From: Nitrospirae bacterium CG2_30_53_67
Lineage (GTDB): Bacteria; CG2-30-53-67
Direction: 5' to 3'
Assembly (NCBI GenBank): GCA_001873285.1
Contig: MNYV01000174.1
Span: 1 to 10,358, forward strand
Length of the DNA stretch: 10,358 nt
Part shown: positions 7,367 through 10,358 of the stretch, one piece after another
How the letters are laid out: each line of letters begins with the position of its first letter
How positions within the stretch are numbered: the first letter of the stretch is position 1
Translations under genes and position numbers: made by a program
Notes under the pieces: generated by a model
The model's input: the letters and a program-made list of their open reading frames with translations, nothing else
The model's database searches: none
Told to the model about the DNA's origin: nothing

Positions 7367-7870
7367 TTAAACGAAAAGATTGATCTTGGCGTCGCTCGCG
7401 ATATCCAGATAGCTCGCCGCGCCCACAAACTCACACCCATCGATAAAATCACTCTGATGAAAACCGAAGAGTTCGACCGTCATCTGGCAGGCCAGCATCT
7501 TGACCCCGGCTTCCATACACAGGCTTCTGAGCTGTTCGATGGTGGCAACGCCGTTATTGGCGATGGTCTTCTTCATCAGGACGGTAGCCAAGTTCTCATA
7601 TCCAGGAATATTGGCCTGAACAATATTCGGGATGTTCCAACTGATATTCCGGAACCATTTGGGACCCATAGGCATCTTCATGGGCATGGCCGGGTTGCCC
7701 AAGGGGCTGACCGTGGCTGTGATCTTTTTCTTGAGCAGGGTCAGACCATAAAAGGTAAAGAAGATGCTGACTTCATAATCAAGCGCCGCCGCCGTGGAAC
7801 CGAGAATAAAAGGCGGATAGGCCCAGTCCAATGTTCCCTTACTTGCAATGATCGTCATCTTCGTCCCCAT
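7367..7870 (-). CDS. DsrE2-like protein (DsrE/DsrF/DrsH-like family)
   Basis: The product has 167 residues. Family marks are the start MTIIASKGTLDWAYPPFILGSTAAALDYEV, then FFTFYGLTLLKKK, PLGNPAMPMKMPMGP, and LACQMTVELFGF with Cys128, the position where the conserved cysteine of DsrE2 proteins sits. Cys118 and Cys146 are further candidates. Relatives carry sulfane sulfur on cysteine and work with rhodanese and TusA in sulfur transfer to or from dissimilatory sulfur enzymes; none of those partners is in the window. The ATG at 7870 has an excellent ribosome binding site, AAGGAGAG, directly upstream. A 6-bp hairpin GGCTGA/TCAGCC (7890-7895/7904-7909) lies in the leader just before an A-run and that site. 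The gene appears to be transcribed alone. Confidence 0.88.
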   Translation of the reverse strand: MGTKMTIIASKGTLDWAYPPFILGSTAAALDYEVSIFFTFYGLTLLKKKITATVSPLGNPAMPMKMPMGPKWFRNISWNIPNIVQANIPGYENLATVLMKKTIANNGVATIEQLRSLCMEAGVKMLACQMTVELFGFHQSDFIDGCEFVGAASYLDIASDAKINLFV

Positions 7871-8258
7871 ACGTCTCTCCTTTTTTTTCGGCTGAGTTTC
7901 AAGTCAGCCTTTGGTTTAAGAAGCCCCAAACACCTGAAGGCAGTACGGTTTTATATCCGACTTCCCTTTCTCAACGATCCATGTCTTAGTCCCGGCATGG
8001 ACACTGAACACCTTCCAATATATTCCAATTCTTGACTTCTCTTACCGCCCCTCGATAGGCCGAGACCCATACATGATCTAACCATGTTGTGGTACATTAC
8101 CAGAAGAAAAAGTAAAATGGAAGAAAAAAATTTATTCCCAGTGTTTTTTTGGGGGATGGGATTTTTAAGACCATACAACCCTTGGCAGACGGCTTTTGTC
8201 AAATTTAACGTGTCACATATTTAGCGTTCTCAAACGATTCGATAAGATCCCGGCTTTC
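7871..8258. other. 388-bp intergenic region upstream of the DsrE2-like gene
   Basis: No reading frame here has a ribosome binding site; an 83-residue minus-strand frame (7951-8202, TTG start) shows no recognisable content. A direct repeat TTCCAA spaced by four bases (8013-8028) and a TATAAA on the minus strand (about 7949-7954) could belong to the DsrE2-like promoter, but no matching -35 box is clear. A perfect TTGACA on the minus strand (about 8197-8202) lacks a convincing partner. Confidence 0.4.
8123..8161 (-). terminator. Weak terminator-like structure after the cytochrome operon
   Basis: On the minus strand TCCCA and TGGGA (5 bp, 16-nt loop) are followed by ATAAATTTTTTTC. The T-run is good but the stem is short. 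It lies about 100 nt after the stop of the two-helix membrane protein gene. Confidence 0.28.
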
Positions 8259-8531
8259 TCATTCCTCCGGGCCTTTGCCCTTCTTAAAAATGATGTGCGT
8301 TTCATCTGTTAGAAGTCCGCAGGCCGTGTAATTGACCACCCATAACAGAATGGCGACAATGGGGATGGCCACAATGGCGATGCCCATTCCAGGACCTGTG
8401 GATTCGTTCAGCTCTCTTGCAGAGTAGATCAGGTAAAAAAACCAGCCGAAAAAACTTAAAATAAAGAGATTGAAACAAAGGACCATTACAATTTGGATAA
8501 TGTACGCGCTCTTGGCCTGGACTTTGATCAT
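8259..8531 (-). CDS. Small two-helix membrane protein in operon with the cytochrome
   Basis: The product has 90 residues and two predicted membrane segments, about residues 11-36 (IIQIVMVLCFNLFILSFFGW and on) and 49-68 (MGIAIVAIPIVAILLWVVNY), with a short polar loop between them and a charged C-terminal tail (KKGKGPEE). The ATG at 8531 has AGGAGG 7 nt upstream. The cytochrome stop lies only 15 nt before the start, and the ribosome binding site overlaps the end of the cytochrome gene's stop region, so the two are almost surely co-transcribed and perhaps translationally coupled. I do not recognise a family. A membrane anchor or quinone-side partner for the cytochrome is a reasonable guess from context only; there are no heme or metal motifs in it. 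Confidence 0.75.
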   Translation of the reverse strand: MIKVQAKSAYIIQIVMVLCFNLFILSFFGWFFYLIYSARELNESTGPGMGIAIVAIPIVAILLWVVNYTACGLLTDETHIIFKKGKGPEE

Positions 8532-8546
8532 GGATCTGCCTCCTAT

Positions 8547-9818
8547 TCAGTGTTTGTCGTGAATGGCCGGGACCTCTTTCTGATCCCCGCTCATCTCTAT
8601 TTTCATTTCGGTCTTCTGAATCAGGACCGGTTGATACAGATAATTGACATAGGCCTTGACGATCACATCCTTGTCCGGAACGACCATGAACCTGAACGTC
8701 TCGGTCCGGGTTTCATGCGGGGAAATCCGGTTGTCTTCAACAAAGCGGGCGGGCTTCCACATGAGATCCGCATCCCCGGAAAATTCCTCTCCGGTCTCTT
8801 GGTCCACCAGTTTTTTTCTGTAAACCTTCTGCCGGATCACGGTCTTTCCATCGGGAACCGTTTTGACCTCACAGATCAGAACCAGATTTCTCGAAGGGAT
8901 GCCGGTAGGCAATTTATGCCCTGAACCTGTATTGGTCAAACTCACGACAACAGTGAGGTTGCCCCCTCTTCTTTCCACCTTCTCAAGTCGTGTGACGATA
9001 TCATCATGTTCATGTTCCGTTTTGACAGGCGGCGCGTCTTTAGAATGGATCCCTCCGCTGAGTGAATCTTTGAACATCCGCATCCTGGGGTCTTTCACTT
9101 TCCCCTCTGCATGGGGCACATGGCAGCTTTGACATGGAATGCCCTGTCCGGCGTAAGGACTTTTCTTCCATTCCGTATAGGTCCCCAATAAAGATACGCC
9201 ATTTTCATCTGAGTACTCATGGCACCCTGCGCAGAATTCCGAAGAAGCAAGGACCGGATTTTTTTTGATATCGTGATACGTTCGATCCCGTTTCCAATCC
9301 ACGCCGGCCTTGCTTAAGAGCGGATTCATGGCCATCGGGCTCGCCCGTCCGGACAAATCCACATCCTTGACCGCGTGGCAGAAATCACAGGTGACACCTT
9401 CTCTGGTTATCTCAAGTTCCTGATCAAAATCTTTGGTTAACAAGACCGTGGGCGCATGACATCTCAGGCAGAATTTTTTCGCCTGACCTCCTGTTCGGGT
9501 ATAGACCAGAGCATAGGTTGATTCAAAGATGGGATCGTCCATGGAATGGGCGTGCATGGACAAACTCCACGTCTTAAAGATTTCCTGGTGACACTGACCG
9601 CATATTTTCGCAGGAATATATATCCTTTGACGTCCCGTCTCGCTCTCGGTCAGTGGTTCGGCCTGCAAAGAAAACAGAGGCCGTTCCATCAGTAAAGCAG
9701 TCAGGATGACCAGCACAGCCATCAGGATGGAACAGCGTGTTTTGAACTCATGAGTGTGCCGGTTCCCGGGTATTGAACGCCGGTTTTGTTGTGTTTGAAG
9801 CGTATGAGAAGAAACCAA
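8547..9818 (-). CDS. Periplasmic pentaheme c-type cytochrome with C-terminal beta domain
   Basis: The product has 423 residues and five CxxCH heme sites: CGQCH (73-77), CLRCH (117-121), CDFCH (144-148), CAGCH (196-200), CQSCH (229-233). Extra histidines in the heme region (for example 89 and 91) can serve as distal ligands. Residues about 270-410 form a heme-free, strand-rich domain with GHKLPTGIPSR, a phrase seen in other multiheme cytochromes with a cytochrome c554-like front part. A hydrophobic segment (30-46) gives export or an inner-membrane anchor. The start is a TTG at 9818 with AGGAG about 6 nt upstream. The first in-frame ATG (9722) has no ribosome binding site, so the signal has an unusually long n-region of about 29 residues. 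It leads a two-gene operon with the membrane protein, probably under the sigma-54 promoter at 9869-9884. The electron donor and acceptor cannot be told. Confidence 0.9.
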   Translation of the reverse strand: MVSSHTLQTQQNRRSIPGNRHTHEFKTRCSILMAVLVILTALLMERPLFSLQAEPLTESETGRQRIYIPAKICGQCHQEIFKTWSLSMHAHSMDDPIFESTYALVYTRTGGQAKKFCLRCHAPTVLLTKDFDQELEITREGVTCDFCHAVKDVDLSGRASPMAMNPLLSKAGVDWKRDRTYHDIKKNPVLASSEFCAGCHEYSDENGVSLLGTYTEWKKSPYAGQGIPCQSCHVPHAEGKVKDPRMRMFKDSLSGGIHSKDAPPVKTEHEHDDIVTRLEKVERRGGNLTVVVSLTNTGSGHKLPTGIPSRNLVLICEVKTVPDGKTVIRQKVYRKKLVDQETGEEFSGDADLMWKPARFVEDNRISPHETRTETFRFMVVPDKDVIVKAYVNYLYQPVLIQKTEMKIEMSGDQKEVPAIHDKH

Positions 9819-9868
9819 GTTTTTCTCCTGATGGCGCTTGTACAGGAATTCGATTCTTTAATTTTATA

Positions 9869-9884
9869 TGCAACGGTTGTGCCA
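9869..9884 (-). promoter_or_regulatory. Sigma-54 (RpoN) promoter of the cytochrome operon
   Basis: The minus strand reads TGGCACAACCGTTGCA, an exact match to TGGCAYRNNNNTTGCW, with GG and GC at -24/-12 spacing. Start of transcription would be near 9858, giving a leader of about 40 nt to the TTG at 9818. A weaker sigma-70-like pair, TTGGAT (9884-9889) and TAAAAT (9861-9866) with a 17-nt spacer, overlaps it. Confidence 0.75.
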
Positions 9885-10189
9885 TCCAAGAGAAAAAAGG
9901 GAGAAGTTTCCCAACAAATTGTTTTTCAAAGGATTTTTTAAATAAGGATCCCCATTTAAAAACTGTCCTGAAACCGGTCAGTGTCCGGAAATGCAGTGAC
10001 TTGTTTTTAACTTTAAAATCAAACTGTTGAAACAGATAGCCTCAAGATTGTTATGAAAAGTGTATGGAAACCGGTCGTTTTTCTTTTATCCCTGAACTTT
10101 GTCCGGCCCTGGTCCAACAGGCACTCAACTTGTGATAAAATATGGCCTTATCCATTTATCAATCTTCCTTTCCGGGTGAGCCTTCAATT
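9885..10189. promoter_or_regulatory. Candidate shared enhancer region between two divergent sigma-54 promoters
   Basis: The AT-rich spacer holds a 10-bp direct repeat GAAACCGGTC (9970-9979 and 10067-10076), paired blocks CCTGAA...TGTCCGG (9967-9988 and 10091-10106), and two short dyads, AACAAaTTGTT (9913-9923) and CTGTTgaAACAG (10024-10035). Enhancer-binding activators of sigma-54 usually bind 80-200 bp upstream. Most of these sites lie in that range of one promoter or the other. The bound protein is unknown. Confidence 0.4.
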
Positions 10190-10205
10190 TGGCATACCTT
10201 TTGCT
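10190..10205 (+). promoter_or_regulatory. Sigma-54 (RpoN) promoter of the gene at 10285
   Basis: The plus strand reads TGGCATACCTTTTGCT, an exact match to TGGCAYRNNNNTTGCW with correct -24/-12 spacing. Transcription would start near 10216, giving a leader of about 69 nt before the ATG at 10285. Confidence 0.75.
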
Positions 10206-10284: not shown

Positions 10285-10358
10285 ATGACAAGGCGATCCG
10301 CCACCGGCATGATCTTCTGTGCGCTCTTAAGCGCCATGGCGGTGTCACTGTTTTGCAT
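10285..10358 (+). CDS. Secreted or membrane protein, N-terminus only, cut by the window end
   Basis: ATG at 10285 follows AGGAGGGG by 6 nt. Only about 24 residues are seen: a basic start MTRRSATG, then the hydrophobic run MIFCALLSAMAVSLFC, which fits a signal peptide or membrane anchor. No mature sequence is present, so the product cannot be named. Its own sigma-54 promoter, divergent from that of the cytochrome operon, suggests that it belongs to the same respiratory or stress programme; another cytochrome or a porin-like partner would fit, but this is guesswork. Confidence 0.7.
   Translation, partial: MTRRSATGMIFCALLSAMAVSLFC

Follow-up and report, generated by a model that had tools for sequence, protein, structure and literature searches.

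Conserved divergent sigma-54 promoter elements between two cytochrome operons of an uncultured Nitrospirae lineage, with a candidate two-component activator

The stretch of DNA considered here (the window) is the 10,358-nt contig MNYV01000174.1 of Nitrospirae bacterium CG2_30_53_67 (GCA_001873285.1), that is, the whole of contig C174 in a genome (G000) of 2.36 Mb on 183 contigs. The relatives with which it is compared are five further genomes of the same family (G001 to G005, of which G001 belongs to the same genus) and Nitrospirae bacterium isolate 128-326 (G041, locus L121), which is outside the searched family list. Near the right end of the window, a gap of 466 nt separates two gene starts that face away from each other, a TTG at 9818 on the minus strand and an ATG at 10285 on the plus strand, which have the Shine-Dalgarno sequences AGGAG and AAGGAGG, respectively; Rfam revealed no structured RNA in the gap. 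The TTG opens the first gene of the minus operon (8547-9818), which encodes a c-type cytochrome of 423 amino acids with a Pfam match to Cytochrome_C554 and orthologues that are 44 to 88% identical. Its five CXXCH motifs bear out the earlier description of this gene product as pentaheme. The second gene of the operon (8259-8531, minus strand) encodes a small membrane protein of 90 amino acids that has no Pfam match and whose orthologue, in the same gene order, is 88% identical in G001 and 62 to 76% identical in G002, G003, G005, and G041. In the relatives, a gene for a cNMP-binding protein adjoins that of the small membrane protein, on the same strand in G001 to G005 and on the opposite strand in G041; the window is without this gene, and about 360 bp (7922-8284) stand for about 850 bp in G001 (positions 515-1361 of locus L064). 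Also close to the cytochrome operon is a DsrE2 sulfur carrier gene (7367-7870, minus strand) that scores over the curated cut-off, and a similar gene is found near this operon in G001, G003, G004, and G005.

To the right of the gap, the window holds only the first 24 codons of a QrcA-like pentaheme cytochrome gene (10285-10358, plus strand), because the contig ends; they encode a signal peptide whose identity to the G001 protein is 75% over 24 amino acids. Based on the full operon as read in G001, G002, G003, and G041 (loci L064, L066, L068, and L121), the gene order is a pentaheme cytochrome of about 167 to 192 amino acids, a MopB-like protein, a four-cluster FeS protein, an NrfD-type membrane protein, and a four-haem cytochrome c. 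On two details the original prediction of a divergent exported protein is to be corrected: the product is a multiheme cytochrome whose gene heads this operon, not a generic exported protein, and here the gene is truncated by the contig end. Among curated families, the first three subunits match QrcA, QrcB, and QrcC best; in NCBIfam bits against the cut-off, the scores are 91/180 for QrcA, 322/440 for QrcB, 300/400 for QrcC, and 49/570 for QrcD, so that none passes. Because the Qrc matches fall below their cut-offs and the NrfD subunit is nearest to DsrP (and matches QrcD weakly), we do not file the operon as Qrc; given that its small cytochrome also matches the subunit A chains of alternative complex III (ACIII) in solved structures, we name it, on these matches, Qrc/ACIII-like. 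Contig C165 carries the continuation of the operon in G000 (MopB, FeS, NrfD, and the start of the last cytochrome), and it overlaps contig C4 by 309 identical bases. The join of C174 to C165 rests on the unbroken gene order in G001, G002, G003, and L121 and not on the G000 sequence.

Within the gap, two 16-mers match the sigma-54 consensus TGGCAYRNNNNTTGCW, with its GG-N10-GC core, at all defined bases. One of these -24/-12 elements, TGGCACAACCGTTGCA (9869-9884, minus strand), faces the pentaheme cytochrome gene, and the other, TGGCATACCTTTTGCT (10190-10205, plus strand), faces the Qrc/ACIII-like operon. With the C of the GC set at -12, the predicted starts fall at about 9858 and 10216, which would give leaders of about 40 and 69 nt, respectively. 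On all of these points (i.e., two exact divergent matches, a gap of 466 nt, and starts at 9858 and 10216), the original prediction stands, as does its view that such a pair is unlikely to arise by chance: when the window was shuffled 200 times with dinucleotides preserved, exact matches averaged 0.01 per shuffle, and no shuffle held two. Scanned for the same consensus, the whole genome yields 14 exact sites, including the 2 in the gap, versus 2 for a reversed-pattern control. Most of the other 12 sites lie outside long frames and a short distance upstream of a same-sense gene, and we take the consensus to be meaningful in this organism for that reason. The sigma factor on which the interpretation depends is likewise there; rpoN is encoded in G000 by a 480-amino-acid frame (Sigma54_DBD, E = 2.9e-60).

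Both promoter elements are kept in seven genomes, the six of the family and G041. They are identical in G001, where they lie 321 bp apart; the spacing is 321 to 323 bp in G002 to G005, and in G041 both elements are exact and 304 bp apart. Loss of the -24/-12 bases in relatives had been named as a sign against these promoters, and near and farther relatives alike retain these bases, apart from a single mismatch in the left element of G002 and of G004. When the seven gaps are aligned, the left element has a between-genus identity of 0.89 and the right one of 0.82, versus 0.30 for background columns, and the invariant columns number 13 of 16 and 11 of 16, respectively (24 of 32 together), versus 8 of 223 in the background. 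A search of 386 genomes, in which the single position that varies in the left element could be any base, found the divergent pair in six of them, once per family genome and in no others. These observations support the reading of the gap as a putative pair of back-to-back sigma-54 promoters, each upstream of a same-sense gene. An extension to distant homologues of the pentaheme cytochrome (in Nitrospinota, Methylomirabilota, and others) was rejected, given that the exact promoter pair was not found at them and that the homologue is in other gene contexts in L125, L127, and L130.

What might the two promoters have in common upstream? A dyad resembling TGTCCGGAAnCCGGACA occurs in two copies, one upstream of each promoter, and the copies are 97 to 98 bp apart in all seven genomes. 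Dyad 1, TGTCCTGAAACCGGTCA (9964-9980), is at the same place in 7/7 genomes, with a between-genus identity of 0.75, and is adjoined by an extra half-site, TGTCCGGAA (9982-9990, plus strand), that is seen in the alignment (identity of 0.65 over 9981-9990). Dyad 2, TGTATGGAAACCGGTCG (10061-10077), is conserved in position in 7/7 genomes with an identity of 0.69, and its clearest palindromes are those of G004 and G002. The dyads are imperfect, with four mismatches in G003 and in the second copy of the window. The center of dyad 1 is about 114 bp upstream of the predicted minus start and that of dyad 2 about 147 bp upstream of the predicted plus start, which is a usual distance for enhancer sites, and we regard both dyads as candidate activator sites. 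A repeated dyad common to both promoters supports the idea that a single activator may serve the two. The dyad is rare genome-wide, and among the listed G000 dyad matches and the exact sigma-54 sites, the two kinds occur together only on C174. A wider regulon was considered, but we claim no second target because the other dyad matches and the other exact sigma-54 sites are on different contigs. Also set aside were some 40 dyad-like matches in G003, all of them one repeated sequence, TGAACGGAATCCGGAAA; with about 40 places across the G003 contigs, this sequence looks like a dispersed repeat family.

Sites resembling the IHF consensus WATCARNNNNTTR are found in the gap as well. Between dyad 1 and the minus promoter lies AAACAATTTGTTG (9912-9924, minus strand), which has one mismatch to this consensus; G003 and G005 have an exact match at this position, G000, G001, G002, and G004 have one mismatch, and the site runs into a conserved T-rich block that ends at 9940 (identity of 0.75 over 9921-9940). 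On the right-hand side, between dyad 2 and the plus promoter, an IHF-like site (10139-10151, plus strand) is exact in G003 and G005 and has one mismatch in G002 and G041, while at this site the window has no match within one mismatch (it is weak in G000). Genes of the IHF/HU family are present, and IHF may have a role at the gap. Separately, an exact match to the IHF consensus, AATCAAACTGTTG, lies between the dyads (10017-10029, plus strand) in the window and in G001 only.

If the gap is a control region, which activator would run it? A look for an NtrC-type activator nearby had been proposed as a check, and G000 does encode one, immediately beyond the end of the right-hand operon. On contig C4 of G000, a histidine kinase of the dCache-HAMP-HisKA type comes next after the final gene of the operon, and then a response regulator (G000:C4:3452-4807), whose Response_reg, Sigma54_activat, and HTH_8 domains, all over cut-off, give it the receiver, AAA+ sigma-54 domain, and Fis-type HTH of the NtrC family. 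G004 likewise has the kinase and then the regulator immediately behind the operon; in G002, the operon leads into the kinase, after which the contig stops. All seven genomes that have the promoter pair also have an orthologue of the kinase, and no checked relative that lacks the pair has one. The regulator is 71 to 96% identical among the four family genomes compared, and the five family regulators read carry GAFTDA, not GAFTGA, a variant that is listed as compatible with activation and reported among the activators of Desulfovibrio vulgaris (PMC4641369). L121 has a response regulator (14845-16215) not far from the pentaheme gene; we rejected it as a different one, at 46% identity to that of G000, and the G041 orthologue of the kinase is on another contig, with its own regulator. 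At loci L084 (4889-5470) and L085 (3652-6697), a multiheme cytochrome gene comes after the response regulator, and in L085 so do a DsrO-like gene (just under cut-off) and a DsrP gene (over cut-off). Because a kinase and an NtrC-family activator directly follow the right operon and the kinase tracks the promoter pair, the presumptive shared activator now has a named candidate, one for which place and co-occurrence make a strong, if not conclusive, case.

We consider it likely that the gap is a two-way sigma-54 control region run by the downstream kinase and NtrC-family regulator, and that the two operons are induced together. In the mechanism that we propose, the histidine kinase and response regulator encoded after the right operon would constitute a dedicated switch. 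The phosphorylated regulator would bind the dyads at 9964-9980 and 10061-10077; DNA bending, probably aided by IHF, would carry each bound complex to RNA polymerase-sigma-54 at the nearer promoter; and ATP hydrolysis would open both promoters, such that the pentaheme cytochrome operon and that of the Qrc/ACIII-like quinone-cytochrome oxidoreductase would be induced together. Does one signal, then, turn on both gene sets? Very probably it does, because the promoters and the putative shared activator sites stay put in the seven related genomes. As far as sequence can speak to it, the original interpretation of RpoN acting with a shared activator draws support from the presence of rpoN, the conserved elements, the repeated dyad, and the nearby NtrC-type activator.

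Could a different enhancer-binding protein (EBP) do the activating? In that case, both promoters would still depend on sigma-54, and the downstream pair would control something else, for example, the DsrOP-type genes after it. Another activator could bind the gap because G000 has about 17 whose sigma-54 domain is complete; moreover, the genes that follow the pair are of the DsrO/DsrP type in G001 and similar in G003 and G005, and the pair is apart from the operon in three genomes (G003, G005, and G041, in the last of which it stands alone). We nonetheless think this unlikely, though deserving of serious thought, given that the pair comes immediately after the operon in G000 and G004, as does the kinase in G002, that the kinase orthologue and the promoter pair occur in the same genomes, and that upstream of the DsrOP-type genes the stretches read hold no sigma-54 site within one mismatch, except for one inside the G001 kinase gene.

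The same dyads bear on the idea that the promoters are real but separately controlled, each having its own activator or only one of them being used. In its favor, the distance from each promoter to a dyad of its own (114 and 147 bp) is a usual one, and in genera g1 and g3 the sequence of dyad 2 differs from that of dyad 1; against this, the two copies share one consensus at a fixed distance in the seven genomes, and both promoters are kept together everywhere, which makes separate control quite improbable. That the elements are chance resemblances or functionless relics is scarcely credible, even though promoter activity is a prediction only, with 0.01 matches expected in the window, between-genus identities of 89% and 82% against 30% in the background, and a pair seen in no other of the 386 genomes, a record of conservation that already contradicts it.

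What would a joint, two-way switch of these operons mean for the organism? The candidate phylum CG2-30-53-67 has been reported to carry two sets of dsrAB, one reductive and one oxidative (PMC10591310; PMC11406059), and the direction of sulfur metabolism in this lineage is debated. A link between the putative switch and sulfur metabolism is plausible because the family genomes carry dsrA, which is over cut-off in 6/6 of them, with two copies in G000, G001, G002, G003, and G005 and one in G004. The two copies in G000 are distinct genes (G000:C147:552-1718 and G000:C37:4284-5432). From the setting of the kinase-regulator pair, with the Qrc/ACIII-like operon on one side and DsrOP-type genes on the other, in bacteria with two dsrA genes, one might speculate that the pair senses redox or sulfur state and, when sulfur metabolism changes direction, uses the region to switch the flow of quinone-linked electrons, although we would hold this to be doubtful. 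What the locus offers is a checkable regulatory circuit, with promoters, candidate activator sites, and a named kinase and activator, for a respiratory complex of an uncultured lineage; the dyads and the predicted starts lend themselves to tests in a laboratory host, with no need to cultivate the organism itself.

Pairs of divergent operons that depend on sigma-54 and a cognate activator are already known. The orp (orange protein) system of Desulfovibrio vulgaris is listed as a divergent pair of operons whose activation takes sigma-54 and a single cognate EBP, DVU2106 (PMC4641369, Table 1, pointing to Fievet 2011). The arrangement in G000 is alike in having divergent operons, sigma-54 elements, and one cognate EBP (here a candidate only), and, as in an orp-type shared enhancer region, there is a common upstream motif for both promoters, i.e., two dyads with one consensus; DVU2106 also carries the GAFTDA variant (PMC4641369). 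In contrast, the orp EBP is single-component and its operons are listed there under cell division, whereas in G000 a two-component pair goes with electron-transport operons. The Ohc octaheme cytochrome complex of Desulfovibrio is similar in that sigma-54 and a local EBP (DVU3142) are predicted to control an operon for membrane cytochrome electron transfer, but the DVU3142 gene is itself divergent from the operon and only one operon is controlled (PMC4641369). As to the complex, the right operon has the multiheme cytochrome, MopB-like, four-cluster FeS, and NrfD subunits in the same order as the menaquinone reductase QrcABCD (PMC13059093, PMC6303296), but it scores under the curated cut-offs, its fifth gene is an extra four-haem cytochrome c, and its NrfD protein best matches DsrP, not QrcD; with alternative complex III, it shares the small cytochrome that matches subunit A, but its MopB and FeS proteins are encoded by separate genes. 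What is new is a strongly conserved, nearly symmetric region with what looks like a dedicated two-component pair for a Qrc/ACIII-like complex in an uncultured lineage.
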